The position numbers and the translations under genes are program-made. Source: Dasypus novemcinctus (taxonomy: Eukaryota; Chordata; Mammalia; Cingulata; Dasypodidae). Taken from it: a stretch of 64,000 bases of DNA. Shown one piece after another: positions 23,680 to 63,665 of the stretch (the first letter of the stretch is position 1; each line of letters begins with the position of its first letter). The notes under the pieces were generated by a model. The model saw only the letters and a list, made by a program, of their open reading frames with translations. It searched no databases and was not told the origin of the DNA. Location: contig NC_080699.1 in the NCBI RefSeq assembly GCF_030445035.2, positions 868,001-932,000 on the forward strand, in the 5' to 3' direction.

Positions 23680-23849
23680 ATGCCTCGGGAGCAGCAGGCC
23701 GGCTGCCTCGTCCTCCTCGCGCTGCTGGGGCTGCCTGGACGGGCGGACGCGGTGACCAGGATCTACCACCTCGGGATTGTGGAGGAGCTCTGGGACTATG
23801 CGCCCCGAGGGAAGGACGTCATCACCGGGAGAAGCTTTGCCGAAGACAA
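23680..23849 (+). CDS. HEPHL1: HEPHL1 exon 1 (signal peptide and start of domain 1)
   Basis: 170 coding bases encode residues 1-56 and two bases of Lys57. The ATG at 23680 is chosen because it begins a typical secretory signal: a short charged start (MPREQQ), a leucine-rich core, and a likely cut after Ala24 just before VTRIYH. The exon ends GACAA before GTGAGT. The donor lacks the usual G at -1 but is otherwise perfect. That donor is the first of fifteen copies in a tandem array. Reading through it gives GAC AAG TGA, an immediate stop. Confidence 0.9.
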
Positions 23850-26800
23850 GTGAGTGCCCGCCGGCCCAGCTCGGCTCTGCGGGGACGAGTGAGTGCCCGC
23901 CCGCCCCGCTCGGCTCTGCGGGGACAAGTGAGTGTCCGCCAGGCCCCGGTCGGCTCTGCGGGGACAAGTGAGTGCCCGCCGGCCCCGCTCGGCTCTGCGG
24001 GGACAAGTGAGTGTCCGCCAGGCCCCGCTCGGCTCTGCGGGGACGAGTGAGTGCCCGCCGGCCCCGCTCGGCTCTGCGGGGACAAGTGAGTGCCTGCCAG
24101 GCCCCGGTCGGCTCTGCGGGGACAAGTGAGTGCCCGTCGGCCCCCCTCGGCTCTGCGGGGACAAGTGAGTGCCCGTCGGCCCCCCTCGGCTCTGCGGGGA
24201 CAAGTGAGTGTCCGCCAGGCCCCGGTCGGCTCTGCGGGGACGAGTGAGTGCCCGCCGGCCCCGCTCGGCTCTGCGGGGACGAGTGAGTGTCCGCCAGGCC
24301 CCGCTCGGCTCTGCGGGGACAAGTGAGTGTCCGCCAGGCCCCGGTCGGCTCTGCGGGGACAAGTGAGTGCCCGCCGGCCCCGCTCGGCTCTGCGGGGACG
24401 AGTGAGTGCCCGTCGGCCCCCCTCGGCTCTGCGGGGACGGGTTCCCTGGCCTCTTGCCGTGGGCGTGAGTCCATCTAGACCAACAAGGGGGTCGGTCCAC
24501 CTGCAGGGACCTAGCGGCCACCTGTGATTTGGAGGTATTCTTTGCCTTTGGCGGAGCCCCAAGACCTTGTCTGTGAGAGACACCCACAGCCGGGTGATCT
24601 TAAATCAGGGTCGCTGGGAGAGGACGCTCCCCACTGGTGCCACGGGCGACCTCCAGACGGAGCTGTTTTGAAAAAATAATACTGACAACATTTGCGGTGA
24701 AAACGTGAGAATTTCCAAGAATTCTTCCCTGGTTAAACACAGAGGATTTTCTTAGTTTTTGTTTCTGGAAAGAAATATATTTGGAAATGGGTAGATATGT
24801 TTTGCTTTCCCTTTGTAATGCTTAAAGGAGGGTCCGTTACAGTAGATTGGGTAGAATGGGTACTTTGAGAGTTTCTTCGACCTGTCCAGAAGTGGCCCTT
24901 TCACTGGTGGGAGTTTTGTGCAGCCAAGTGCATCCGCTGAAGGGGCGAGGCCTGTTCCTAGAGCCCGTGGAATCGTGGCATCGAGGGTGAGAGGTGCTGT
25001 ACTTGAGTCCTTTTTTTGTTTTTGTTTTGTTTTCCCCAGAATATTGCCCCTGCTCATCTCCCCTGGGGCCAGTGCCTTAAGTACTTTATTTGCCCCTGGA
25101 GGAGCCTCTGTAATTTCAAAGTTACTGTTGGATGTTTCTGTGCTGTTTTTTTCGGTGACAGGCAGAACTCACTGCATTTAACACTCCAGTTGTTTCCTAA
25201 GGTGAGATTAGTTGTTAAAATTCAGGAACAGCCCAGGGGCGGCCAAGCCGCCTCAAGAGCCAGGTGCCCTGCCTGGGGAAAGGCCAGGCGGAGTTGGCCC
25301 AGGGCCCTGGGGCTTCTAGATTTCTCTAACCTCCCGTGCTGCTCCCCAGAGAGGGACAGGGTGTGCCGGCCAGGCAGGGACGCCTCCTGAGACCCCTCGC
25401 CAGGACAGGTAGTGTCCAGAGAGCGCCTGACCTGACCTGGCGGGGCCTGGGATCCGCAGGCGGCCCTGGAAACAGCCCTGCCGTGCGAGCAGCCGTGGCC
25501 CGAGCCCCAGGACGGCACGTGGGCGCCCTCGACCCCGTCCACGTGCTGGGGCTGACAGCACGGGCAGCCTCCTCTGAAGTGCCGTGGGCACGGCTGCGGC
25601 AGCGCCTCCTCGGCCCGGGACGATTCTCCTGCTGCTCGCAGACGCTCGTTCCACTTTACAAACGGGGGCCGAGCCCTGGGGTTCAGAGGCGCCCGCGTTT
25701 ACTCGGCAGATGGCGCCCAGCGCCGCGGCGCACCTCCCCAGTTCTGAGCCCGTGGTTCTTCTCACCATATGACCCTTTTCTTGGCAAAACTTATCCTTTT
25801 CCACCCAGCTTTGAAGGAAGCCAGGTGTGTAAGTATAAGAATGTTCTAGAAAGTCCCAATTCTTACCAAAGCAGGTTTCTCTTCCTTGCCACTCCTCCCA
25901 CAGAAAGAATGCTGTGTCCACAAACCTGGGTGCAGGAAAAAGTTAGGGGCTCAGCGAGGAAATGTGCTTTGAAGAAAGCACAATAAAAATTAGTTAGGGT
26001 GAAAAGGAGAGAGAAAATAGACAAACAGAGACGCAGTTTGGTGTCTGAGCTGGAGCGCTGTGCCAGCCCCAAGGCTGCGCGGCGGGGGGTCGTGGCAGGG
26101 ATGGCGTGCGAGAGCGCAGCTGCGGTTCCGGTGACGCACGTCACAGGTGTGGGTCAGGTGTGCACGAAGGGGCCGCGTTGTGAGGCGCGTGGGAGCGCGG
26201 AATGCGCCGCGTGGCCGCGCTCGTCCGCAGGGGGACCCTCGTGCCCACCCACCCGCCGGGTTCTGAGCGCGGCCTGCTCTTCGGGAAGATCAAACACAGG
26301 GAAACGCCCGCGTTCCGGCCGAAAGCCGGAGCCTGGGATTGGGCCAAGCCCTGCTCGCCCGGGCTTGTCAGTGCTGGAGCCAGGAAATCTCCATCGAGCC
26401 CTTGGTGTGTGACAGGAGTGGACGTAGACTCCCTGCTGGCTTAAGGAGCGGAATGCCAGGGCACTGGAGTAATTTCTGAAACTGAACGAGAAATGTCTTA
26501 CCGACTTGCCAATCGGAGAGATTTTTGCAGTGGTGACCGAGAGGAGAGACAGCTCCTCAGGATTGGAGTCGGAGAGGAGGGGGGCTGATTTTCGGGGTAT
26601 GCGACAGTGTTTTCCGTATTCTGTATTTTCCCTTACCTACCCGTTTGTTTTTCTTTGTTTTGTTTTGTGTTTTGTTTTTTCCCCATCCTTCAAGACCCAC
26701 CTCCAATTCTTTACCGTAGGTCTGAAGAGTTCACCCCCAGCCCTGGTGTGTGCTGATTTTCTTTCATTCTGAAACTCTGACGAAGCTGGCGTCTTATCAC

Positions 26801-38800: not shown

Positions 38801-41800
38801 CAGTCAGCGCATACTAAAAGAGCATGAAAGGTGGAGGGAGTGTGTACACGGCGGAGGCAGCGTGGGCAGCTCGTCTGTCCACCGCTCGGGTTGTGGCTCC
38901 TTTGGGCCCCTCCTGGCCCTTGGCCTGTCGCTGACTCTCAAGCCTGGCGTCCACGTTGAAGGTGGCGGCGGCGCGCCAGCCCGCGGACTGGGGGTACAAT
39001 GGGGCCCAGGGGGCCTCCGCACGTGCCGGGCTCTGTGAGGGCCCGGGGCCTCCCCACGTGCCGGGCTCTGTGAGGGCCCGGGGCCTCCCCACGTGCCGGG
39101 CTCTGTGAGGGCCCGGGGCCTCCGCACGGTCTGCGGGCACCACTTACGTTTCCCTCTTCCTTTCAGACTTGCGACCTTGTTCCTGGAGCAGGGGCCCCAC
39201 AGGATAGGCGGCGTGTACAAGAAGGCCATCTACAGGCACTACACGGACGGCACCCACTCCACTGAGATCCCCAAGCCCCCCTGGCTCGGGTTCCTGGGCC
39301 CCGTGCTGCGGGCCGAGGTGGGGGACGTGATCGTCGTGCACCTGAGGAACTCTGCTTCCCGGCCGTACTCTCTGCATCCCCACGGCGTTTTCTACGACAA
39401 AGACTCCGAAGGTAAACGTCCCCACGGGGCGCGTCTGTTTCGTCAGGAAGCAGCCATCGCTTCTGGAAAGGGGTTTGGGAGCGCAGGCCTCCTGCCGGCC
39501 CCTGCCCGCCTTCCCTCCGTGCCCCCAGCTCGCTCCTGCTCCTTTGTCTTCTCCTCATTGTCCCTCCCTCCTTCATGCGGGTGCAGAGCCGGCTGCCCCT
39601 TGGTGTCGTGCCCCCGAAGCCCTCAGCCCTAGCTGGGCAGCACCCCGGGCAGTGGGCAGCCGGCTCGGCGCTTCCAGGCCGTGCTGCCCTGACGAAGCAG
39701 CCCCTGCTTCTGACACGTGCCTCAAAGCTTCCACAGGGCAGTTTCTGAATTCCCCCTATTTAAAAAAAGACTTGGAACTTCCTTAATCTTTTGAGGTAGA
39801 AGTAGTTCTCAGGCATCACAGGTTTTTCACACCCCCTGCTGCACTCCTGCTCCTGTCCTAGCAGGTGCCCTGCAGGACGCGCCACCTGCCCTGCCCTGCT
39901 CTGGGGCGTGCACCGCCCCGGGGGCTGGGCGGCCTTGCAGGGTGGTCAGGGCCCCGCTCCACTGCCCCTCGCCCCTCGCTGCGCAGCGTTTTGGCACCTC
40001 CCCTTCCGTGGGCACAGCTCCCAGGCGCCCTCTTGGCGCAGCTTCCTGGCTCACCCGAGCAGCCCTTGACATTCAGAGCGGAGGCTTGGCGGGCTCTCGG
40101 GGCCCTGGCTGCACCTGCTCACTGCCCAAGCTTACAACACAGGTTTAAGTGGCTCAGGGGCCTTCCACTGCGCGCCCTCTGAGCGCCAGGGACTGGCTCA
40201 GTTCTGGGAATGAAAGAGAACGAATCACAGGCCACACTCATATTTGGTATTGATGAAATTTCAGCTTTAAACTACAGATTTTGCATTTCATAAATGTGTT
40301 TAAAGAATGTGGCAAGAAGACCAATTTTTGCAACTCAAAGATTTTCAGTAAATTTATAGGGCTGTGTAACCATCACCACAATCTTTTTTTTGGAATATTT
40401 CTACCATTCCCAAAATTCCCTTCCACCCTTTGCAGTTAATCCCCATCCAACCACCAGTCCTAGGCAGCCAGCGATCTGATTTCTGTCTATAAATTTGCCT
40501 TTTCTGGACATTTCCTCTAAAAGGAATCACAATCTTTGCTCTTTTCCATTTGGCTTCTTTTACTTATTATAATGTTTTTGAAGTCTATCCAGGTTACTAC
40601 AACAAATTTTATTTATCCATTCACCAGTTGACAGACATTGATTATTCATGCTTTTTAACTATTAAGAAAAATACTGCTACGAACATCCACATATGACTTT
40701 GTGTAGACAGTTGAACAGATGAGTTTTATAGTAACTTTCTGTTCAATCTTTAGGAAACTGCCAAACTGTTTTCCAAACTATTTCCAAAGTGGCTGTACCA
40801 TTTACATTTCCAGCAGTGCTGCAGAAGGGTTCCTGATTTGCTGCATCCCCCCCCCACTTAATCTTTTTAACTTTGCCATCCTAGTGGGCGTGTTGTGCTA
40901 TCTCAGTGCCATTTTAGTTTGCATTTCCCTGAGGAGCATCTTTTCATAACCTCATTAGCCATTTGTATATTTTCTTTGTGAAATATCTACTCAAATCTTT
41001 TGCCCATTTTTAATTGAGCTGTATGTCCTATTACTGAGTTGTAAGAGTTCTTTATATAATTTGATAAAAGCCTATATTGGAGATATGATTTGCAAATATT
41101 TTCTCCCAGTCAGTGACTTGTCTTTTCCTTTTCCTTTTCCTTATGGTATCTGGTATCTTTTGAAGTGTACAAAATTTTAAATTTTTTATGAAGTCCAATT
41201 TATTTTTCTTTTATGGATTGGGCTTTCAATGTCATATTAAAAACTTTGTGCCTAACCCAAAGCCAGAAAGATTTTCTCCTATTTTTTTTTATAAGATTGA
41301 ATTTTTACTCTTACATTTAGGTCTATGATTTATTCAAGTTTATTTTTGTCTGTGGTGTAATGTAAGGGTGTAAATTCATTATTTTGCAGGTAAATAAACA
41401 ACTTTAATAAGACCAACCTTTCTCCCATTGAATTCTCTTGGTTCTTTTGTTGAAAATCAACAATTTATTTCAGGGCTCTCAATTCTGTTTCTTTGGTCTA
41501 TATGCTTGTCCTTTTACCAGTGTCACAGTGTCTTATTGTGGATTTACAGTAAATTTTGAAACTATAAAGTATAAACCCTCTAATTTTGTTCTCCCTTTCA
41601 ATTTTTTTACTCTTCTAAGTCCTTTGCATTTCCATATAAATTTTAGGATGATTTGTTAATTCCTGCAAAAAAAGCTTACCTGGATTTTGATAGGGATTTA
41701 ATTGATTTTATCGATCAATCAAGGGAAAATTGCCATCTGCATTTTAAAGATGAATTCCCATCTTAACAAAATTGAGTCTTTTAATCCATGAACATGGAAT

Positions 41801-50800: not shown

Positions 50801-53800
50801 TGGAAATGGGGAGTGAGGGAAAAGGACAGTGGCAGAAAGCTTCCTTTGTTTCTGGCATGTGGCATTGAATATGTGGTACCTTTCACTGAGAGAAGGTAGG
50901 TGAAGCCCAGGTTTAGAAGAGGAGAGCTGTTGCTCCTTGGGAAAGGTTGAATTTGAGGTCTCTTTGAGGCAAGGGGAAATGTCAAATAGTTGAATATCAG
51001 TGAAAACATAAAGATGAGGTCTAGGCTGGAAATATAAAATTGGGAGTCACTGGTGTGCAGATGCAGGTGACACCTTGGGACGGTTGGGATCACTGGTGTG
51101 CAGATGCAGGTGACACCATGGGACGGTTGGGATCACTGGTGTGCAGATGTAGGTGGCACCATGGGACGGTTGGGATCACTGGTGTGCAGATGCAGGTGAC
51201 ATCATGGGACGGTTGGGATCACTGGTGTGCAGATGTAGGTGGCACCATGGGACGGTTGGGATCACTGGTGTGCAGATGCAGGTGACACCTTGGGACGGTT
51301 GGGATCACTGGTGTGCAGATGTAGGTGGCACCATGGGACGGTTGGGATCACTGGTGTGCAGATGTAGGTGGCACCTTGGGAATTGCCAGGATCACTCCAG
51401 GAGAGACTGTTGGGCATGGAAGGAAAGAAGCAAGTACTATGCCTTGAGGAATCTTGACCCTGAAATGTAGATAGAGGAGAACAAACTGGCAAGCAGACTG
51501 AAAAAAGTTACCAGAAATAACAATGTGATGTCACAGGAGCCAACGGAAGAGAAATGTGGAGGTGAGAGGGAGCTAACAATAATATCAAAGGCTTCTGAGG
51601 GGTCAGGGTAATGCAAGGAATTTTAAAAAAATGTCTTTTATATTTAATAGATGGAAAGTAGCCCTCTGGATTTTTTTTTCTTTTATATTTTAGTCCCCTA
51701 TCATGTTAGATGAATTTATCAAGTTAGAAAGCAGTAAATAACATTAGTTTAACTTCAAGTAAAAATGGTCTTATCAAAATACTAGTCAGTGTACCATCAC
51801 CTTATTTTGAAAGACAATATAAGAATTTACAAATAAAGGATATGTCTGCATCTTTTGGAAACCATTCTTGAAAACATTGAACCCATAATTCATTAATTAC
51901 CCAATAATTTGCATATAATTATTTTCTTGAAAATATCCCCTTAGAATTTAGTTCCAAAAAAAGGAAAATAAAAAAGAATTTAGTGCCAGAAAAACTGATA
52001 CTCTCACTTTAAGAACTGGTATGTTTCCTTTAATTGGGCAAAGAAACAATATGCCATAAGATATTTTTCCTTTTCATTTGAAGTCCAGGAAATTCAGCAC
52101 TACACTTAATACTGGAGGGATCTATCTTATTAGATTTATCTCCTGCTTCTTCTCTGTAGGTTTTGCTTTCTGATTTTATATTCTGAATAGTATGTGGCAT
52201 ATAAGTTTACTTTATAAAATGATTTCTTTTCCTTTTAGAATAAAAATGACCAAAAGTTAGTATCTAAAAGAAAGTTCATTAATAAATACATATATAAAAA
52301 TAGCTCATATACCTACATTCCCAGTATGAAAGAGATAAAATGTAGATATTAATATCTACTTTATGGGATTGCTTTGAAGAATAAATGAGACTTACACAAA
52401 GTACCCACAAAGTATAGTAGGAGCTTGGATGTAGTTTTCTTCCTTTATACTTCTCAAAAAATCAGATTAAGTTTTTGTGATAGATTTTGTAGTGAAAAAG
52501 GTATTTTTTTAGTTACAGCTTTTCTTTGGATTGTCTTAGCTATATTGGCTCTTTCTTAAAAATTATTTTTTTAAGTTTTAGTTAGGCCTGTATTTTATTA
52601 AGAAAATGGGAGAAGAGAAAGAAAATAACAGATTATGGGTCCCAGGTATACTTGCATGCTGGTCGAGGCAGAACAAGGAAGAAGGGCAAATGAAGGGCGA
52701 AAATGGCTGGTTTACAGATTACAGAACCCCACTACAGATTAAAGTCCCCCGATGTACTTGCATGCTGGTCCAGGCAGAGCGAGAAAGGACAACAATCAGG
52801 ACAACACAGCTATTTTGGCTCTTGTTGTCTTATTTAAACTTGATTGCTAATGCCTAGCGCATTTGCTAGCAAGGGGGTGTTCCAGGGTTTGCTGAGTGAC
52901 TCAACAGTGAATGAACTTGGGCCTCGCCCACTTCCGTCGCCGTTCTGCCCCTCACCCTCCAGCCCTCTTCTCGCCGCCAGTCCAGCTCTCCCTGTCCTTC
53001 CAGGCCCCTCAGCTCGCATCTCCATTATGAAGCTTCTGATCATTTAAATCTGCAGTTTGGTTTCCTGCCTTCTTCCCAAGTGATTTTCAAACTATTTTTT
53101 GTAATAATAAACTTTATCGTTAGAGAAGTTTTAGATATACAGAAAAATTACACCAGTAGTACAGGGAATTCCAGCATAACCCCCCGCCATACACATAGTA
53201 ACCCCTGTTATTCACATCTTACGCTCGTGAGGTGCATTCGTTACAAGTGACGCACCAATGTGGAAGCATGCTACTGACCGAAGTCCACAGTTCACATTGT
53301 GTTGTGCTGTACGTTTTATAGGCTTTGACAAATATATAATGCCACGTGCCCCTCATTGAGTGTCATACAGAGCAATTTCACTGCCCTAAGAATGCCCTGT
53401 GTTCCACCCATTCACCCCCCCGCCCCCTTCTGAACCCCTGGCAGCCACTGTCTCTATAGCAATATCACAAATTCTTCCATTAACACAGCTAACAACTGCA
53501 ATATCAATGTATCTACTTTGGTCTGTGATTGCTGTCCCCCTTACGTCTGTTCATTCCTCAGACTTGAGGGATTTGGGGTGATGTCCTCTGACTGCTTCAG
53601 CCTGAGGGGGGACTTAGACATTATGGGGCAGATGGAAGGAATTGTTTTGCTTGCAGCTGTAGACACTCCTTGTTTGGGGATGGGATTTGTCCATCATCAT
53701 CATTTTCAAAGAAGACCTAAATAAAAGGGAGGATATTCCAAGTTCATGGATGGGAAGACTAAATATCATTAAGATGTCAATTCTACCCAAATTGATATAT

Positions 53801-56800: not shown

Positions 56801-59800
56801 CAGCGGCACGGGAAGTGTGGGCGGCGCCATTCCTCGGCAGGCTGCTCCCTCCTTCGCGCTGGGCGGCTCTCCTTACGGGGTGCACTCCTTGCGCGTGGGG
56901 CTCCCCTACGCGGGGGATACCCCTGTGTGGCAGGGCACTCCTTGCGCGCATCAGCACTGCACATGGGCCAGCTCCACACGGGTCAAGGAGGCCCGGAGTT
57001 TGACGGGGTAGACGGACGCCCTAACCACTGGGCCAAAGTCCGTTTCCCTCAATTTCTTAATGATATCCTTAGATACACAAAGGTTTTTAATTTTGATCAA
57101 GTTCAATTTATCTGGGTATTTTTTCTTTAGTTGCTCATGCTTTTGATGCAAAGTCTAAGAATCTATTGCATCTATATTGATGCAAAGTCTAAGAATCTAT
57201 CTAAATAGATTTTGGATATAAATATCCTAAAGGTATTTATAGTTATGGCTTTTATGTTTAGTTTGTAGATCCGCTTTTCTGTTAATTTTTGTGTATTAAC
57301 AAATACACAGAAGTGTGAGGTAGGGGTGCACTTTCATACTTTTGCATATGACATCCAGTTTTCTCCGCACCATCTGTTGAAGAGACTGTTCTTTCCCCGT
57401 TGAGCGGACTTGGCTCCCTTGTCAAACTCTCCTCCTTCTTGAGCTGGTGCAGGGAATCACGTCTCCCTCCAGGCGACCCACAGGGGGAGCCCTTGCTGTG
57501 GACGCACTGGAAGTGCCTGGCTCTGGGTAAGGCCCTTGGTGTCCGGTGCCCCGTCCAGTTCTCACAGCCCTCTGAGGTGGACATCAACATTCCCGAGTCA
57601 CTGGTAGACAACTGAGAGGTTCAGTAACGGCTCAAGTCCCACACAGTGGACGCCATGTGCTTTAATGTGCTCCAGTCCAACGCCCTGGCCCTTTCAGCGT
57701 GGCATGAGCTCTCTGTGGTTTAGCTATATGCTGTCTCTTCTCTGTAGGTGCCCTGTACCCAGATGGAACATCCGGAAAGAACAAAGATGACGACGTGGTT
57801 CCCCCTGGCCAAAACTACACCTACGTCTGGCCCGTGAGGGAGGAGTACGCCCCTGCGGCCGCGGACGCCAACTGCCTGACCTGGGTGTACCACTCGCACA
57901 TCGACGCACCCAAGGACATCTGCTCGGGGCTGATCGGCCCGCTGCTGGTGTGCAAGCCAGGTGAGGCAGGCTTCCAACGCTGGTGTGCAAGCCAGGTGAG
58001 GCAGGCTTCCTGCTGCTGGTGTGCAAGCCAGGTGAGGAAGCATTCCCACCGCTGGTGTGTAAGGAAGGTGAGGCAGGCTTCCAACGCTGGTGTGCAAGCC
58101 AGGTGAGGCAGGCTTCCTGCTGCTGGTGTGCAAGCCAGGTGAAGAAGCATTCCCACCACTGGTGTGCAAGCCAGGTGAGGCAGGCTTCCCGCTGCTGGTG
58201 TGCAAGCAAGGTGAGGCAGGCTTCCTGCTGCTGGTGTGTAAGCAAGGTGAGGAAGCATTCCCACCGCTGGTGTGTAAGGGAGGCAAGACAGCCTTCGCGT
58301 GTTGAAAAGTGTAGGTAAGATTCGGTCTTGTTTCGTCCATCTGCTTTGCTATGCGTAGAATGTGCTGCTTCTTCCAAACTTTCCCTAAGGAATTCCCGAA
58401 GGAATTTCCCTAGGAATTTCCCTAGGAAAATTCTTCAAACAGGGAAGAGTAGTCTGACATCTAGGGCTGTAGGAATTAGATGTGTAGGCAGTAATCCAAC
58501 ATCTGTCCAAGAACCAGCATTCTGAAATGCGTGATTTTTGAAATGGGGAATGCCATGTTAATAGCTGTTCACACCACACACGGAAGAGAGAAAAATTTAG
58601 TCAGATGACCAAGGATGCTTGCACCTCATTATTTCATCCAAATAATCAGCTTGCTTTTTATTCCCTATTTATTTTTTTACAGTTTTTATTTTGCCAGGTT
58701 GCGACAGTGTCTGGCTCACGAGTCGCCTCTTCATGGCACTCTCCTTCCATCACGGCCTCATGCCTCTGTCCCCGTCACCCTCGTGTAGGTCCTGACAACC
58801 TCCAGCATCATCTGACACCAGCGCAGGTAGCAAAGCTCTCCTCGATTCAGTCCACCGTGAACTTTTTTCTCTGCTTTTCTGAATGTGTCTGACAGGTGTC
58901 CTGAATAAGTACTCAGGGACGAGGGCTGATGTGGACCGGGAGTTCGTTATAATGTTTACTCTGGTGGATGAGAACCAAAGCTGGTACCTCGATGAAAACA
59001 TCAGGCAGTTCTGTACCGACCCTGATTCCGTCGACAAAGAAGATGCTGTTTTCCAGAGGAGTAACAAAATGCATGGTGAGTGTTACAAACACCTACCTCC
59101 CGTGGATTTGTGTGTCTCATAATGTAAGGGGTGCTGAGTACACAGAAATGTTGAGCCTAATTTTTCAAGATTTGTAGCTTAGTGAAAAGAAGGGTTAGAA
59201 AATGGTTTATGACATGATACATGCCAAAGCCTAAACAACCTGAGGAGGGACAAGGCGGTGACTATGTGTTAAATAGGGTGTAAAATATGGACAAAACTGT
59301 GGTACAAAAAACAGGAGGATTTATGACATCATCAAGACACTAAGGGAGCCCAGAGGGTGGGTAGATGTAAGTGGACAGAAAGGGGAGAGGAGAATGAAGT
59401 CATCACCGTGTAATAATCCTATGTTTTGCAACCTCTTGCTTTATCTTGTAACCATTTTTTAAATGATTGATAAATGTCAAGGGCTATCTAGGCATAGGGT
59501 TTAAATACACACTTGTGAGCTTGTTTGTTTTCCCAATTTTTTAAATCAACAAAATTTATTGAGCACCTAAGATGCGCCAGACCCTGTCATTGCTGAAAAT
59601 GGGGAATTTCAATAGTTACTCTGTGAGTTGAGACAGGGCACTCACCCACACCTGTTCTGGCGAGCAGTGGCTTCTAATGGAAATTACTGGTGATCTTGGT
59701 CCACTCTTGCAGAGAGCTTGTGAGCGCAAGGAGGAACCTTGGCGTGTCCCCATTTCGTTCTCGACACAGCTCCTCCAGCTTTTGCTTGTCTCTCAGAGCC

Positions 59801-62800
59801 ACCCTAACTGAGGCAGCCCCATGTAGTCAGAATCATGAGGGACAGGAAGGAGCTGAAGATGCCCTGAGACCCCATTTTACAGACGGAGAAACTGAGGTCA
59901 ACGTGCTCATCAGTGCTGGTGCTTCCAGCACACTGCTCGCCCCTGCCCTCCTAGTGGTACCTCAGTCGCCTGGGTCTGGGGGTGCTTGGACAATGCTTTA
60001 GGAGAGAAGGACGTAAAGGAGCAGGGAGAGGGGACAGGAGAGAGGAAGCCTGAGTGGAAAAGGCCTAAGTTCACGTCTCTGCTGTGGCCGTTACTCTTCA
60101 TCCACGATCCTTAAAATTAGGAGACTGTGTCTCAAATATTGCTGAAAGCTACTAGTTATGAATCTACATGTGAATCCTCTTACTCTCTCTTTTAGGGTGA
60201 GATGGAATGAATTACATAAGCAAATCTAGACTACTTCAAAAATAAAAGCCAGCTTCCGTGCAGGAGGTGTTTGCAAACACCAATCCTTCACACTAGCAAA
60301 GGAGACCTAACAAGTACAGAGAAGAAATCAGCTTGAAAAACAGTCTGTAGAAGATGCTCGCCCAGGGTGTGATTCAGTGATAATTTGCTTAAGCTTACCT
60401 TTAAATTTGGGGAATGACTTAGAATTCATTGTGCTGCTCAAGCCATTATTATCTCAGTAGCACTCGCTGTTACCTCGGTCTTGAGCTCCAGAGGCGATGG
60501 CATGGCTTTTAAAAGGGCTGAATCGAGGTTTTCTCCCGCCTTGGTCCGGTCCAGCCTGCTCGTACCTGCGGGGCAGTGCTGGGCCTGGACTCCCGGTGTG
60601 AGCGCAGTCCGAGAGACTCTGCCCAGCAGGGCCTGGCGGGCAGGCCCCATTGAAGGCAGCCAAAGAGACGCGTGTCTCGTGGACTCTTCAAATGCTGCGT
60701 TTCCTCTCCATCTTGCTGCATGTTTTTGTTACCCGAGTCCCTCTTACCAGTGCCACCTCTTGCTAGGTCCTGGCAGCTGTAAGAGTGAGTAAGACCAAGT
60801 TTCTAGCTCCAGGGAGCCTGGTGGAGAAGGCAGATACGCAAATGAAGGATTCCCTGAGAGGTAACAGAGATTCTGGAAGTCTGAGCAGTCTGGTCACCTC
60901 TGGCTTCCTTGTGATCACACAGCAGCTCCGAGGTGGTTTTCAGTGTGGAGCGATCTGACTTTTACTCTTGAAAGGATCAATACAAAATTTTCATGCCCTT
61001 ACAGAGCATATATTTTTAAAAAGCCCTGCTTTTCTGCGCCACAGCTTTACACCAGTCATCTGAGCTGGCGTTCGGCTCTGCCATAGTGCCCGTTGCCAAC
61101 GTGGACCTTAGCGTGTGGCCGGTAGCCTGCTTGCCTCTACAGCGAGCCTGCCACAGCGCGTTTCTTTTTCAGCCCTGAACGGGTACGTCTTTGGGAACTT
61201 CCCCGAGCCGGAGCTGTGCGCCGGGGACTCTGTGTCCTGGCACGTGTTTGGAATGGGGAATGAGATAGACATCCACTCCATCTATTTTTACGGAAACACC
61301 TTCATCAGCAGAGGACACCGCACTGATGTCGTCAACCTGTTCCCAGCCACCTTCCTGACCTTAGAAATGATGGCCGAGAATCCTGGGAAGTGGATGATAA
61401 CTTGCCAGGTCAGCGACCACCTGCAAGGTAAGAAAGGCACAGAGCCGTTTGGAGGTGCGGAGAACGGTATAATTAAACCACGGTCAGGAGGCCTTGAAGT
61501 ACCTCAGAAACTGAATAGGTGAAAAAGGGAAAGGACTTGAAAAAACACACATTCTATTCTAAGGAACTGTAAGTAGCATAATAAAATTTTAGCCTTGGAA
61601 AGGACTTTATAGATAATCTGAACCAATCTCCCATCCGATTCTTTTTTTTGGCATACCGCCAAGTCCCATCCAATTCTTCAGTTCCTTCTTGAGCATCTCT
61701 TTAAGTAATGTAGCAGCCCACTTTGCCCCTGGACTGCTCCATTAGAAAATTCCTTATACTGAGTCCAGTGACTTGTAGTTCTCTCCAGGCCAGGACAGGT
61801 GGCGGTAAAATGGGCTGGGTCAACTGCCTCCTGAGTGCCTTGATCCTGGTCCCTGGAGCTACTTGGAACAGGTCTGAGTTTGGCTGGACCGTGCCAGAGG
61901 AGTGAAAAGAAAGCATCCAGAGGGCAGGTTGGCCCCAGGAGGAGTCTCGAATGCCACGGCCAAGGAAGTGGCACTGTGTTTGGAAGGCAGCTGGAGTCCT
62001 AATAGCTCCTTGGACGTGCTGGTGGCACAATCAGTGCTAGGTGATTTGTGTGCAGAAAGGATCTGATGGAGAGATTCTGGACACTGGGTGCTAGTTAAGA
62101 AGCACTGGCCTATGAGCTATGAGATTTCGAGGATCTGACCTATGATAGTGAAAACATCCTCAGAATGGGGGAAAATGTGCTAATGGGATAGACAGAGAAG
62201 AAATAATGTTTGATAAAATTTGTTAACTATCACTGTACAGACACTAGCAGAGACGCAACTGTCCAGGGCTGCTTGGATAACACATTCTAGTTCCTGTCAA
62301 TCTTAACCAGTTAATCTTAGCAATAGTCAGCTGGGTTATCCTAATTAAATTCAGCTCAACAAGCATTTGTTGATCACTTAGTACCATACACTGTCCTGGG
62401 AAGATGGAGATGAACAAGACAAAATTCCCATTCTTAAAGGATCTCATATGTCAAATCTGGGAAGAAACATACTTTAAAATCAAAACATTAGCAGCTGTTG
62501 GAGACTAGTAGGACCATCAACTGGACCTGCAGCTGTGGACAGAAGCTGGTGTGTGGACAGTCTCTGAAACCCAGTGTCCCCTCAACTGTCCACATTATTG
62601 TGGAAAAATCAGAAGATACAGATTAACAAATTTTAAAAATAGTAATCCCCTCTGGAGGTAATGCTGCCCCAGTTAGTACCTACCCTCCTGACTGTTTTCT
62701 ATTCCTATCTAAATAACTTCACCTGTAGTTTATAAAATGAAATCAGTGTATGACTGCTGCTCGGTAGCTTGCTTTTCCCACTTATTAATAAATCACAGAT

Positions 62801-63665
62801 AAACTCCCATGTCAGTGAATATAGATCTATTCATCATTTATAATGTTTCCAGTGTCCATTACAAGATTACCATTTATTTAGCCAACACCCTATTGCTGAA
62901 AACTTGTATTTCCCCCTCCCCATTATTTTGCTATTATAAATAATACTGATGAACATCAATTTACAGATATATTTGCACTTTTGTCTGAATATTTCCGTAG
63001 AAAAAGTCCTAGATTTGGACTTCCGGGAACTTATGTTTTGATTTTTTTTAAAAAGCTTTGGAAATACATTGCCAAATTCCAGTTTAGAAGTTGTTACTCT
63101 TTCAGTGTGTGAGCATGCTTTTTTCCCTATTCCTCTGTCACTGCTGAGAATTGTCACTTTCCTAATCTTTGCCAATCTGACAGTGAACAACATTATTGTT
63201 CTGATTACTATTAAGGTTGAACATTTTTTCACATGCCTTATTGGCCAATTGTATTGGGAAGATTTGCTTTTTTCTTCTTTATTTGTTAACAGTGATTTAC
63301 ATATTAATCTTTTGTCGTATGTGTCACAAATAACATACTGGCCATGTATCCTTTGCCTTTAAAGTTTTTATGGCCCTATTTCCTGTTCGAAAGTTTAATG
63401 GTCATCAAGTCCCACCTACCAGTCTTTCCTGTGGGGTGTCGTCCTGGTGTGAGCATTTGCATCTTGGCTTGTCGTTTGTTTTGCTCTGTTCTGCAGCTGG
63501 GATGCTGGGACAATACAATGTTAGCACCTGCAAAACTGCCAGTCCTCACCTCAAGATGAAGGGCCGACAGAGGCACTACTTTATTGCTGCTGAAAAAGTT
63601 CTTTGGGATTATGGTCCTCAAGGCTACAACAAATTCACTGATCTACCCCTGAACGCCTCTGGCAG
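23680..63665 (+). CDS. HEPHL1: HEPHL1 (zyklopen), multicopper ferroxidase, exons 1-6, 3' end outside the window
   Basis: Joined exons 23680-23849, 39167-39411, 57748-57960, 58896-59075, 61173-61427 and 63497-63665 give 410 codons plus two bases without a stop or frameshift. All introns start GT and end AG. Intron phases are 2,1,1,1,1,2. The family is hephaestin/ceruloplasmin: membrane-bound copper enzymes that oxidise Fe(II) to Fe(III) for loading on transferrin. HEPHL1 rather than HEPH or CP is chosen from the N-terminus ([20 protein letters not shown]) and the overall match to what I know of zyklopen. The piece covers the signal peptide (about 1-24), cupredoxin domain 1 with H127/H129 and H187/H189, and most of domain 2. 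The family length is about 1,160 residues, so roughly two thirds lies beyond the window. Confidence 0.93.
23845..24440 (+). repeat. 39-40-bp tandem array made of exon 1 splice donors
   Basis: Fifteen units, each starting (G)GAC(A/G)A followed by GTGAGTG and then about 30 GC-rich bases ending GGCTCTGCGG. The donor G is at 23850, 23889, 23928, 23968, 24007, 24047, 24086, 24126, 24165, 24204, 24244, 24283, 24323, 24363 and 24402. Spacings alternate between 39 and 40 because of a one-base difference (CGCCGGCC against CGCCAGGCC types). The first unit's GACAA is the end of exon 1. The overlapping frames of up to 268 codons on either strand are by-products. Confidence 0.95.
24441..27775 (+). other. 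HEPHL1 intron 1, first part
   Basis: No gene within it. GC-rich patches (25220-25720, 26060-26420) have chance frames on both strands. Weak MIR-like ends appear near 25650-25690 and 27360-27400. I see no alternative coding exon with family features. Confidence 0.45.
27790..28143 (-). mobile_element. DAS-III-type SINE (short form), antisense
   Basis: Reads from a T-run through TAAGATTTATTTATTTAATC, GTCTATTTGCTGCGTCTTG, GGGCGGCGCCATTCCTGGGC and CACACGGGTCAAGGAGGCCC to the tRNA-derived head TGAACTGTGGACCTCCCATG ... CCACTGGGCCAAGTCCGC. On the minus strand the head has a tRNA-like A box (GTGGTTAGGGCGTC) and B box (GGTTCAAACC type). Imperfect target copies flank it (TCTACAGGCTTTC at 27777, TCTACGGTTTTC at 28144). 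DAS SINEs are known from armadillos, which is the main evidence for the host. Confidence 0.9.
28156..29278 (+). other. HEPHL1 intron 1, second part
   Basis: 28200-28580 resembles the low-GC body of an ancient dispersed repeat (CAAGATGGCTGCTGGGACTCCAGCC) whose family I cannot name. 28680-29270 is GC-rich with chance frames on both strands. No exon recognised. Confidence 0.4.
29279..30035. repeat. ~37-44-bp minisatellite in intron 1
   Basis: About nineteen units of the pattern CCTTTAATCACCRCTGGTC, then TACACTGNGGGATGGCC, with spacing of 36-44 bases. A second unit type has CTTTAACTGCCGCTGGTC and GGGGATGGCTGGCTA. In the middle (29479-29770) the two types follow a repeating order, so a larger unit of about 120 bases has itself been duplicated. 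Confidence 0.93.
30036..32261 (+). other. GC-rich middle of HEPHL1 intron 1
   Basis: Very GC-rich, with overlapping open frames on both strands (30017-30589 minus, 30497-31345 plus, 31144-31698 plus, 31309-31986 minus). They lack homology I can recognise, start in different places and are explained by scarcity of stop codons. A short near-duplicate is visible: ACGGGGTTCACCAGCCACGC at 30560 and 30608. Confidence 0.45.
32262..32922. repeat. 33-bp minisatellite in intron 1
   Basis: About twenty units of CTTAGGAGTGGACGCCCAG followed by CACCGCCCAGGGGT, with main variants CCCAGCGGC and CCCAGGGGT that alternate in the centre. Because 33 is a multiple of three, and no stop occurs in two frames, they stay open for hundreds of codons (252 codons from 32291; 400 codons ending 32982). 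The repeated peptide changes with the frame and has no family match, so I do not call a gene. Confidence 0.95.
33004..33098 (+). mobile_element. DAS-I/II-type short SINE
   Basis: A tRNA-like head (AGTTGAGTGCCTGCTTCCCATG, then B-box-like GAGTTCGGTTCCTGG) is followed by an A-rich tail (AAAAACAAAAACAA). The head resembles the next copy at 33114 and the head of the DAS-III copies in antisense. Confidence 0.65.
33112..33215 (+). mobile_element. DAS-I/II-type short SINE
   Basis: GATGTGGCTCAGTGGCTGAGCACC gives a clear tRNA-like A box, and CCCCGGTTCAATCCTCAGCC gives the B box, with an AAAATAAAATTAAAAA tail. It sits only about fifteen bases after the preceding copy in the same orientation, perhaps inserted at its A-rich tail. 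Confidence 0.75.
33216..34470 (+). other. HEPHL1 intron 1, GC-rich part
   Basis: No exon, repeat family or regulatory site I can support. Chance frames up to 187 codons on both strands. Confidence 0.4.
34471..34640. repeat. 56-57-bp repeat, about three units
   Basis: CACCTGGAGAAGATCCACC recurs at 34496, 34552 and 34609, each preceded by a GGCCCAGGT or GCTCAGGT block. Three diverged units only, so an early-stage or decaying minisatellite. Confidence 0.85.
34641..37028 (+). other. HEPHL1 intron 1, before the sense DAS-III copy
   Basis: GC-rich until about 35870, with an unbroken run of thirteen G at 35463-35475. It is followed by an A/G-rich stretch (35990-36370) of unknown origin. The longest frame, 311 codons from 34653, has no recognisable domain and lies in GC-rich DNA. 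No gene is called. Confidence 0.4.
37045..37468 (+). mobile_element. DAS-III-type SINE (long form), sense
   Basis: The only DAS-III copy in the window in the gene's orientation. tRNA-like head AATTTGGCTCAACTGATAGAG with B box GGGTTCAAACC, then the typical body (GTCAAGGAGGCC in reverse, GCCTGCCCAGGA), ending AAATAAATAAAAAAGAAATC. Near-perfect 16-base target copies flank it: GAAAACGCAGCTGGAG at 37029 and GAAAACACAGCTGGAG at 37469. It carries the extra body segment that also occurs at 42507 and 56259. Confidence 0.92.
37485..39010 (+). other. HEPHL1 intron 1, last part, with an L2 fragment
   Basis: 37895-38085 has the layout of a LINE-2 3' end in sense (TCTTTCAGATCCCAG at the start, AGCTCCGAGCACAGGGCC and GCGCGTTTGTTGACTGACT at the end). 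The rest is GC-rich with no exon recognised. Confidence 0.5.
39011..39130. repeat. 35-bp repeat next to the exon 2 acceptor
   Basis: GGGCCTCC(G/C)CACGTGCCGG starts at 39011, 39046 and 39081, with a partial fourth unit at 39116. Each full unit is 35 bases. The array ends about 36 bases before exon 2, so the branch site (a CACTTAC match with its A at 39146) and the pyrimidine tract are squeezed between array and exon. Confidence 0.93.
39167..39411 (+). CDS. HEPHL1: HEPHL1 exon 2 (domain 1, first His-X-His)
   Basis: 245 bases, residues 57-139. Acceptor TTCCTTTCAG, donor GAAG before GTAAAC. Contains the conserved [12 protein letters not shown] and VGDVIVVHL stretches and the copper-binding H127-P-H129 in SLHPHGVFY, which in ceruloplasmin-type proteins contributes two ligands to the trinuclear copper cluster. 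No disruptive change seen. Confidence 0.95.
39412..40209 (+). other. HEPHL1 intron 2, first part
   Basis: GC-rich non-coding sequence; no repeat or extra exon recognised. Confidence 0.4.
41940..42302 (-). mobile_element. DAS-III-type SINE (short form), antisense
   Basis: Same body as the 27790 copy, with the GGGAAGTGTGGGCGGCGCC junction of the short form. TTAATTTCATTTTT precedes it (from 41925) and TTAATTTCATTTTTT follows (from 42304), a clear target duplication inside the old L1. Confidence 0.93.
42368..42506 (-). mobile_element. DAS-III-type SINE, truncated, antisense
   Basis: Only the tail half is present (AAAGATTTTTAAAAAATTTATTACTC through CAGCGGCACCGGGAATCTATGTTTC). The tRNA-derived head is missing, so it is 5'-truncated. 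The next copy begins directly after it. Confidence 0.8.
42507..42920 (-). mobile_element. DAS-III-type SINE (long form), antisense
   Basis: Complete copy with the extra CAGGAATCTGTGTTTCTTTTTG...GTGTCAGCTCTCC segment between the tail and GGCGCCATCCTGGGC. The head reads TTTGAACCTCAGACCTCCC ... CCACTAGGCCAAGTCCGC. Inserted against the T-rich side of the truncated copy. Confidence 0.9.
44910..48870 (-). pseudogene. L1 ORF2 pseudogene
   Basis: Minus-strand fragments in order: endonuclease pieces 48862-48596 ([17 protein letters not shown]) and 48454-48272 ([13 protein letters not shown]), linker 47495-47271 ([19 protein letters not shown]), reverse transcriptase 47007-46798 (SLIPKPGKN) and 46737-46462 ([23 protein letters not shown]), and C-terminal pieces 45727-45476 and 45178-44915. 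Stops and frame changes separate all pieces, and the SINE at 47845-48225 interrupts it. Confidence 0.88.
47845..48225 (-). mobile_element. DAS-III-type SINE (short form), antisense
   Basis: Complete copy within the L1 ORF2 pseudogene. Preceded by an unusually long T-run in two parts (47813-47838 and 47848-47866) separated by ATCAGGGA. Short-form GGGAAGTGTGGGTGGCGCC junction. The head ends GGGCCAAAGTCCG with one extra A. Confidence 0.92.
49030..49890 (-). pseudogene. L1 ORF1 pseudogene
   Basis: Minus strand, N-terminal start [19 protein letters not shown] at 49883 with a coiled-coil-like continuation, and the C-terminal part near 49239-49024 ([39 protein letters not shown]). The middle is disrupted. 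The N-terminal part lines up with the MTQLKEQ start at 1127. Confidence 0.85.
49931..50254 (+). other. Intron 2, between L1 and MIR
   Basis: No gene. The left part may be the antisense 5' leader of the L1. It shares no clear monomer with 1-700. Confidence 0.35.
50255..50465 (+). mobile_element. MIR SINE, sense
   Basis: Long MIR: TTACTATATGCCAGGCACTGTGATAA, then TAATCTTCAGCAACTCTAT, then GGAAATTGCCCAAGTCACATAA and GATTTGATTCCTGGCAGTCTAACTCC. All core blocks are in order. Confidence 0.9.
50480..51640 (+). mobile_element. Ancient dispersed repeat, family unnamed, with internal minisatellite
   Basis: The phrasing (GGGAAGCCATGGGATG, AAGGATCACTCTTGCT, ACTGCAGAAGTCCAGGTGAGAGAT, AAATATAAAATTGGGAGTCACTGGTGTGCAGATG, GCCTTGAGGAATCTTGACC) is that of a repeat seen widely in mammalian introns, but I cannot assign its family. 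No coding potential. Confidence 0.45.
51045..51396. repeat. 43-bp minisatellite in intron 2
   Basis: GATCACTGGTGTGCAGATG begins at 51088, 51131, 51174, 51217, 51260, 51303 and 51346, exactly 43 bases apart, with diverged partial units at each end. Two unit types occur (CAGGTGACACC and TAGGTGGCACC), in the order C, C, T, C, T, C, T, T from the partial first unit at 51045. The seed is visible in the flanking ancient repeat (GGGAGTCACTGGTGTGCAG at 51043). Confidence 0.95.
51641..53094 (+). other. HEPHL1 intron 2, AT-rich part
   Basis: No gene. A TACTTGCATGCTGGTC block is repeated at 52649 and 52755 with AGGCAGA following, so a ~106-base segment may have been duplicated. 52860-53040 is GC-richer and unassigned. 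Confidence 0.4.
53095..53860. mobile_element. L1 3' UTR (antisense) joined to an L1 ORF2 scrap (sense)
   Basis: 53095-53700 has antisense old L1 3' UTR landmarks and matches 19640-19860. At 53700 the orientation flips: 53709-53856 in sense encodes [20 protein letters not shown] and then [17 protein letters not shown], the conserved ORF2p C-terminal segment. Two L1 pieces in opposite orientation meet at CATCATCAT. This could be a twin-priming inversion or two insertions. Confidence 0.7.
53861..54239 (+). other. Intron 2, no feature recognised
   Basis: GC-moderate sequence; frames are short and unnamed. Confidence 0.35.
54240..54890 (-). mobile_element. Antisense old L1 3' UTR
   Basis: Collinear with 12873-13440 (TTTTATTTTGAAATAATTTC, ATTCTGCCACATTTGCC, a short CATC run, TATGAACAAGGATATTCACTTA). 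Then a second old L1 3' block from 54715 (GTGGAAATATATATAAAACA). Confidence 0.75.
54891..55485. mobile_element. Unassigned dispersed repeat
   Basis: GAAATGGATTGGCTTTTAGA ... GGGGATTTATTTGAGGT, then GTCCAAATCGAGGCACCATGAGAGG and CAAGATGGCCGCC: phrases common to a medium-sized non-coding repeat, seen once here. I cannot give a family. No coding capacity. Confidence 0.35.
56259..56682 (-). mobile_element. DAS-III-type SINE (long form), antisense
   Basis: Complete, with the extra CAGGAATCTGTGTTTC segment and the head GAACCGTGGACCTCCCATG ... CACTGGGCCAAGTCCGC. TTTCAATTTCTTTC precedes it and CCTCAATTTTTT follows it. Confidence 0.92.
56686..57047 (-). mobile_element. DAS-III-type SINE (short form), antisense, head deleted
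   Basis: Starts directly after the previous copy. Short-form junction (GGGAAGTGTGGGCGGCGCC). The head has lost about twenty bases around the B box: it reads GGAGTTTGACGGGGTAGACGG where the other copies have GTTTGAACCGNGGACCTCCC. CCTCAATTTCTTAATG follows. Confidence 0.9.
57426..57747 (+). other. HEPHL1 intron 2, last part
   Basis: A MIR-like ACATCAACATTCCCGAGTCACTGG...GACAACTGAGAGGTTCAG segment lies near 57580-57630. It ends with the exon 3 acceptor TCTTCTCTGTAG. Confidence 0.45.
57748..57960 (+). CDS. HEPHL1: HEPHL1 exon 3 (domain 1, second His-X-His)
   Basis: 213 bases, residues 139-210. Encodes [20 protein letters not shown] and the following [20 protein letters not shown], with copper ligands H187 and H189 and cysteines 181 and 207, probably a disulphide as in ceruloplasmin domains. 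N161-Y-T is a potential glycosylation site. The exon ends CAAGCCAG before GTGAGG. Its last 22 bases are the seed of the array that follows. Pro209 stands where I recall Glu in human HEPHL1. Confidence 0.95.
57939..58290 (+). repeat. 35-36-bp tandem array carrying the exon 3 splice donor
   Basis: The unit CTGCTGGTGTGCAAGCCAG plus GTGAGGCAGGCTTCC includes the end of the coding exon. Donor-like GTGAGG (GTGAAG at 58139) begins at 57961, 57996, 58032, 58068, 58103, 58139, 58175, 58211 and 58247; a tenth unit at 58283 has decayed to GGCAAG. Three unit types (AACGCTGG, TGCTGCTGG, CCACCGCTGG) follow in a fixed order, giving a 107-108-base higher-order unit repeated three times (57961, 58068, 58175). 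Confidence 0.96.
58389..58430 (+). promoter_or_regulatory. Cluster of three kappaB-like motifs
   Basis: GGAATTCCC at 58389 and GGAATTTCCC at 58401 and 58413 are spaced exactly 12 bases. GGAATTTCCC fits the NF-kappaB consensus. The motifs come from a tiny 12-base tandem repeat (CCCTAGGAATTT type), so the fit may be accidental. No other evidence for an enhancer. Confidence 0.25.
58896..59075 (+). CDS. HEPHL1: HEPHL1 exon 4 (start of domain 2)
   Basis: 180 bases, residues 210-270. Acceptor GTCTGACAG, donor CATG before GTGAGT. Encodes [20 protein letters not shown] and [11 protein letters not shown], the conserved linker into cupredoxin domain 2. N236-Q-S is a potential glycosylation site. C249 is conserved in type. 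Confidence 0.95.
59076..61172 (+). other. HEPHL1 intron 4
   Basis: No extra exon. Old MIR/L2-like pieces at 59545-59600 (AAATTTATTGAGCACCTAAGATGCGCCAGACCC) and 59865-59895 (CCCCATTTTACAGACGGAGAAACTGAGG). The remaining sequence is unassigned. Confidence 0.5.
61173..61427 (+). CDS. HEPHL1: HEPHL1 exon 5 (domain 2)
   Basis: 255 bases, residues 270-355. Acceptor TTTCTTTTTCAG, donor GCAAG before GTAAGA. Encodes [20 protein letters not shown] and [12 protein letters not shown], the two faces of the cupredoxin fold that in copper-bearing domains hold the type 1 site. H304 and the cysteine of ITCQVSDH are present. Confidence 0.96.
61428..63496 (+). other. HEPHL1 intron 5
   Basis: 62345-62450 is an old L2/MIR-like piece (CAACAAGCATTTGTTGATCACTTAGTACC). 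62690-63370 looks like very old antisense L1 (TTTGCTATTATAAATAATACTGATGAACATC, CCTTATTGGCCAATTGTA). No extra exon or gene. Confidence 0.5.
63497..63665 (+). CDS. HEPHL1: HEPHL1 exon 6 (end of domain 2)
   Basis: 169 bases, residues 355 to the first two bases of 411. Acceptor TGTTCTGCAG, donor GGCAG before GTAAGC. Encodes AGMLGQYNV and [20 protein letters not shown], the entry to domain 3. N407-A-S is a potential glycosylation site. The next exon is outside the window. Confidence 0.95.

Follow-up and report, generated by a model that had tools for sequence, protein, structure and literature searches.

How does the spliceosome choose among near-identical 5′ splice sites when the first of them alone keeps the protein? 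HEPHL1 poses this question as a natural experiment, with nine such sites at one exon and fifteen at another, in the window analyzed here (the whole stretch of DNA, 64 kb in length). A first-pass annotation had described the array at the end of exon 3; the array at exon 1 is an addition to that finding, in the same gene and with the donor likewise arrayed.

HEPHL1 and its first six exons

The window holds exons 1 to 6, the first six of the gene, which leave 410 codons open and are bounded by GT donors (6/6) and AG acceptors (5/5). All lie on the forward strand: the coding part of exon 1 from the ATG (23680..23849), whose end is GAAGACAA, with the split codon of EDK where orthologs read ...SF.EDKLATLFLE and similar; exon 2 (39167..39411, 245 nt); exon 3 (57748..57960, 213 nt, phase 1-1, with the end LLVCKP-G); exon 4 (58896..59075, 180 nt); exon 5 (61173..61427, 255 nt); and exon 6 (63497..63665, 169 nt). 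Both sequence and exon structure identify the gene as HEPHL1, a multicopper ferroxidase. Exons 3 and 4 match ceruloplasmin with an E value of 3e-105 and HEPHL1 orthologs as well, and the joined exons are 83-87% identical, over the whole query length, to 12 placental HEPHL1 entries (P0125-P0136). Exon 2 of mouse HEPHL1 is given as 245 bp, and exon 5 of the human gene as c.809-1063, 255 nt (PMC6534290). Since the exon lengths agree with human HEPHL1, exons 1-4 of the window gene totaling 808 nt and human exon 5 beginning at c.809, the end of exon 3 had been correctly placed at 57960. In a tree, the window sequence falls next to tenrec among the afrotherians, at modest support (83/83), a position compatible with a xenarthran; the relatives named include no xenarthran.

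Exons 1-3 are rich in GC (GC3 0.80-0.87), and the surrounding introns contain other minisatellites. Exons 1-6 carry 42 changes from the mammalian consensus, while 17 other mammals have 12-35 by a near-equal rule. Gains of G, A, R or P number 12 vs 6 losses, and F, Y, M, I, N or K are lost 19 times vs 3 gains; such residue shifts are what GC-biased drift would give, and the shrew entry (P0135) has a comparable residue bias. In exon 1 (23680-23849), 15/57 codons are off the mammalian consensus, vs 3/71 in exon 3.

Two arrays that span a donor

The exon 3 minisatellite occupies 57938..58278 on the forward strand (Tandem Repeats Finder: period 36, 9.5 copies; 35/36-bp unit) and extends to ~58296 once a tenth copy is included. 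As first described, its unit lies across the exon-intron boundary, with 22 exonic and 13/14 intronic nt, and its first copy is joined to the exon. The coding part of that copy (57939..57960) is the last 22 nt of exon 3, with CCA (Pro) as the last whole codon, and it runs into the coding donor at 57961..57966 (CAG|GTGAGG). Eight decoy GT donors follow, at 57996, 58032, 58068, 58103, 58139, 58175, 58211 and 58247 (57996..58252), so that the nine GT positions from 57961 to 58247 are those originally listed. The tenth copy (58261 to ~58296) is degenerate, GC replacing GT at 58283 and the intron side reading GCAAG; the nine copies first counted are thus the GT copies, to which this one is to be added. 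Pairwise, the ten copies differ at 0 to 12 positions, and the differences are patterned in higher-order blocks: a three-unit period of 107 bp recurs 3.1 times with 92% matches (Tandem Repeats Finder), copies 2 and 5 are identical, copies 3 and 6 are one base apart, and copies 3 and 9 are two bases apart. The regularity of this array is not chance.

Offsets of the decoys from the coding donor are 35, 71, 107, 142, 178, 214, 250 and 286, as had been noted, and none of the eight is divisible by three. All eight lead to premature stops, four of them at codons 224, 236, 248 and 261 in exon 4 and the other four at codon 258 inside the array. The first donor is the sole one tried that leaves exons 1-6 open, which bears out, through exon 6, the claim that among the nine GT copies it alone keeps the frame. 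Behind the array lies one more strong donor (58315..58320, TAG|GTAAGA), whose offset of +354 is a multiple of three; we rejected it as an alternative in-frame exon end because the stop at codon 258 precedes it.

The exon 1 minisatellite (23845..24438, forward strand) has a 39/40-bp unit in 15 copies, with GTGAGTG in each, and is opened by the coding donor at 23850..23855 (CAA|GTGAGT). GT is present in 15/15 donors, the first at 23850 and the last at 24402; ten of them (the coding donor and nine decoys) have CAA before it and five the weaker CGA. Reading past the first donor gives AAG TGA, and 14/14 decoys give EDK-stop at codon 58. The unit includes at least 5 exonic nt. A longer exonic origin, suggested by a likeness between GCTTTGC and GCTCTGC, was rejected as not significant (672/2000 shuffles were as good), and we claim the last 5 exon bases alone.

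At both exons, then, the unit contains an exon end and an intron start and the first copy is joined to the exon, as in a donor-spanning VNTR, and the copies carry usable-looking donors, with GT in 9/10 copies at exon 3 (including one weak site; the remaining copy has GC) and in 15/15 at exon 1. Two such arrays in one gene look unusual.

Other repeats of the locus lie in its introns. An intron 2 array at 51040-51381 (43-bp unit, 7.9 copies) has CTGGTGTGCA...CAGGTGA in common with the exon 3 unit, at 18/20 bases with one gap; 3/5000 shuffles were as good, and the match is the top one in the window with a score of 25, but another place scores 24. Intron 1 contains a 33-bp, 20-copy minisatellite (32256-32918) that is open for more than 200 codons in several frames of both strands and is probably not coding, and at 34472-34631 a 56/57-bp repeat of 2.8 copies lies within an open stretch to which no gene is assigned.

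The last codon of exon 3 and the origin of its array

The exonic part of the unit encodes LLVCK, as in mammalian HEPHL1, which argues that the array came from the native exon end, as the first-pass annotation had proposed. The coding copy itself does not look like the faithful original. Window HEPHL1 reads CK-P-G (CCA, Pro), where mammalian entries read CK-E/K/Q/G/R-G. A survey of 38 chosen entries found the motif in 34, all of them mammalian and several from one species; in these, the last whole exon 3 codon is E in 22, K in 4, Q in 4, G in 3, R in 1 and P in none. The four entries that did not match are a sturgeon, a sheep relative, a mink model and a pangolin, the last with one residue changed and likewise reading E. 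A wider list of 240 entries gave a looser motif in 163, with P in 3, and a whole-protein search for CKP found 16 matches; all of these P and CKP matches fall in the second domain, at the equivalent site (about residue 550-680). Pro occupies that second-domain site in 18/240 entries, mostly bird and reptile hephaestins together with two mollusc entries and platypus, and was not seen at the exon 3 site in any entry. Because relatives carry Pro at the equivalent second-domain site, the fold tolerates it there.

Within the array, the codon is CCA (P) in copies 1, 2, 3, 5, 6 and 7, GAA (E) in copy 4, CAA (Q) in copies 8 and 9, and GGA (G) in copy 10. The Pro codon of the coding copy thus looks derived, and four other copies look to be of the ancestral type. 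The simplest reading is that the array apparently rewrote the codon, the coding copy having been overwritten while other copies keep older codons. Alternatively, given that Pro is tolerated in the second domain, the exon could have acquired it by simple point mutation (CAA to CCA), the change then spreading into the array. Under both readings, the exon and intron copies have evolved together. The locus also suggests how a minisatellite can change coding sequence by homogenizing across an exon end.

As to how the array arose, we propose that slippage or unequal exchange at the native junction of exon 3 and intron 3 gave rise to it and that it later expanded in three-unit blocks. Three deposited models, one from pig (P0001) and two from donkey (P0151, P0156), continue beyond the exon 3 donor and so show the beginning of intron 3 in translation, as GKGSLPPL and GKEAPHPL. 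Copies 3, 6 and 9 read GEEAFPPL in the frame of this read-through, and the remaining seven copies do not. Judged from these protein models rather than from pig or donkey DNA, copies 3, 6 and 9 (C-type) look nearest to native intron 3. Copy 10 is possibly the oldest junction, its GCAAG being closest to the GTAAG that the pig and donkey models would imply. The precise duplication seed we leave as a lead: the P-L of the pig and donkey models, at intron positions +18 to +23, lies one unit (36) from the L-L (CTGCTG) of the exon, a likeness of a few bases taken from protein models.

Donor choice and its consequences

What could direct the spliceosome to the first site? We scored donors in bits with a human donor matrix drawn from general knowledge and by U1 pairing in kcal. 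The coding donor of exon 3 scores 7.31 bits and -11.6 kcal by this matrix and pairing; four of the eight decoys share its 9-mer and both scores, three lie 0.17 bits lower with U1 pairing 1.5 kcal weaker (7.14 bits, -10.1 kcal), and the decoy at 58139 (GTGAAG) is clearly weaker at 3.50 bits and -8.4 kcal. The initial view that most of the decoys are by sequence as good as the real donor is supported in the form of nearly as good: seven of the eight lie within 0.2 bits by matrix score, three of these seven having lesser U1 pairing, and 58139 is the exception. Predicted RNA folding does not single out the first donor at exon 3 (openness 0.0001; the highest is copy 4, 0.04); at exon 1 the first donor has the highest predicted openness among the 15, though narrowly (0.038, the next 0.026). 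Neither donor strength nor, at exon 3, predicted folding distinguishes the first donor, so its use likely rests on exon definition and on the exonic context upstream. That it is used enough to make protein is probable from the intactness of the gene over six exons.

Arrays of this kind have a human precedent in the VNTR of CBS, for which Lievers, in 2001, reportedly described alternative splicing. The CBS array is already known as one of the same kind: its name, c.1444_1467+7(16_21), denotes 24 + 7 nt in 16-21 copies (PMC2630376), and a table places it at the exon 13-intron 13 boundary (PMC1395315). The title of Lievers 2001, as cited in PMC2630376, PMC5188458 and PMC1395315, speaks of reduced CBS activity. 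Like the CBS repeat, those of HEPHL1 join a coding-exon end and an intron start head-to-tail, in units of 35/36 and 39/40 bp vs 31 bp. Unlike CBS, with its one array, HEPHL1 has two; it also shows a higher-order structure of three units, and a codon of its exon 3 appears to have been rewritten. This suggests that donor-spanning arrays can occur twice in one gene. Uncommon traits here are the two arrays in a single gene, decoys that mostly equal the real site, and the apparently rewritten codon. A search of titles and abstract beginnings returned no description of a HEPHL1 array.

Other systems resemble the locus in part. In human segmental duplications, internal tandem repeats with minisatellite units of ~30 bp, some of them at exon-intron boundaries, are described as altering splicing (PMC2812944); those are repeats of young paralogs and can yield novel introns, whereas HEPHL1 is an old gene with an old intron. 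Intron gain by boundary tandem duplication, in which the duplication supplies the splice signals, has been described (PMC4974935). In HEPHL1 no new intron is evident: AG|GT is present in the copies, and a pyrimidine tract was not seen in the unit by eye. The CBS 844ins68 variant duplicates an intron/exon junction, and there the machinery is said to prefer strongly one of two alike sites (PMC2630376). We rejected the miR-137 VNTR as a parallel, since the alternative donors described in pre-miR-137 are not inside the repeats (PMC6692358).

With fair confidence, we favor the reading that HEPHL1 carries a donor-spanning minisatellite of the CBS 31-bp VNTR kind. Cutting at the first, exon-attached donor, which exon definition and the exonic context upstream would favor, would still yield HEPHL1 protein. 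A small fraction of transcripts would use decoys and be removed by nonsense-mediated decay, turnover of the array across the boundary would have exchanged the final whole codon of exon 3, and repeat number may differ between individuals and tune output. Duplicated-donor experiments, by Eperon in 1993 and Hodson in 2012, reportedly suggest that, where several strong donors compete, the intron-proximal one is usually chosen. Such a preference would destroy the HEPHL1 protein here and counts against our explanation by the first donor. The nearest natural example, the CBS VNTR, with a name taken from the exon end and reduced activity in the title of its first report, is more encouraging, and we therefore favor chief use of the first donor with some leakage to dead-end decoys.

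How much the decoys matter separates this reading from its neighbors. If the minisatellite were neutral and the first donor practically always used, the sole change would be one amino acid; this account, which overlaps ours in structure and origin, seems to us a real possibility, if short of probable. GC content of up to 0.65 in the 16-40 kb part of the window, where several other minisatellites lie, is consistent with it, and the donor bases are not clearly more conserved than other bases of the repeat: variable columns number 3/18 among donor and 18/58 among other columns (pooled Fisher P 0.37, a length-variable column being included at exon 1 and excluded at exon 3), so that donor-base conservation as a sign of selection is unsupported. 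Two arrayed donors out of six is a striking count, only marginally unlikely by chance and with a special cause unproven. Under random placing of minisatellites, it has a P of 0.030-0.035 with a strict list of 8 arrays and of 0.047-0.052 with a looser list of 18, and the same test over all 11 splice sites gives P 0.17-0.20 with the strict list and 0.17-0.23 across lists, the lists and the test having been drawn up after the arrays were seen; on these values we rejected the idea that finding two arrays in a single gene is strongly non-random. Against complete neutrality speak the general knowledge that strong, near-identical donors at distances of 35-286 nt seldom go entirely unused, and the reduced activity named for the CBS precedent. 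A stronger form of our reading, which we hold to be rather unlikely, has the decoys used substantially, so that repeat number would determine what proportion of HEPHL1 mRNA is productive, with levels differing between individuals. All 22 GT decoys are dead ends (22/22), so any use of them lowers output, and besides the CBS VNTR there is TERT intron 6, where the repeat number of a 38-bp minisatellite is described as governing splicing, at least nine repeats being required for the main non-functional isoform (PMC3948165). On the other side, no deposited protein with a read-through peptide was found (3 candidates, none scored), and heterozygous knockout mice are described with normal whiskers, so moderate loss may go unseen (PMC6534290).

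Two further accounts touch the arrays themselves. Tandem arrays are, as general knowledge has it, often mis-assembled, and the repeat number or the array itself could be wrong; the patterned differences between copies, in higher-order blocks that simple stutter is not expected to give, and a gene intact on both sides of the array make this quite improbable. The donor-like sites behind exons 1 and 3 could also have been selected as a platform that recruits U1 snRNP and protects or boosts transcription, surplus U1 being shed before splicing. The two arrays hold 24 GT donors, all on the sense strand, and account for 18 of the 44 sense-strand donor-like sites of at least 5 bits in the 64 kb, vs 0/22 antisense. 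Copying a real donor is by itself enough to produce this bias, and we found no excess conservation at the donor bases; of all the accounts weighed here, we give this one the least credence.

HEPHL1 loss is described with abnormal hair in a child and curled whiskers in mice (PMC6534290) and with hypotrichosis in cattle (PMC8147104), so that both arrays are hosted by a gene with a visible loss phenotype and a dosage effect is therefore worth testing. More speculatively, and in our estimate very improbably, the two arrays, with 24 donors of which 22 are dead ends, would act as an inherited brake on HEPHL1, longer arrays yielding less productive mRNA, with turnover also editing the end of exon 3. 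Because HEPHL1 loss affects hair in man, mice and cattle, such a brake may, if this lineage is that of an armadillo, have helped to make its coat sparse.

Two observations concern splice sites beyond these donors or beyond this species. A 35-bp, 3.4-copy minisatellite with a GC content of 0.81 (39010-39128) ends 38 nt upstream of the exon 2 acceptor, near where the branch point and pyrimidine tract must lie. The read-through beyond the exon 3 donor in the pig and donkey models of HEPHL1 hints at donor bypass, or mis-modelling, in other mammals too.
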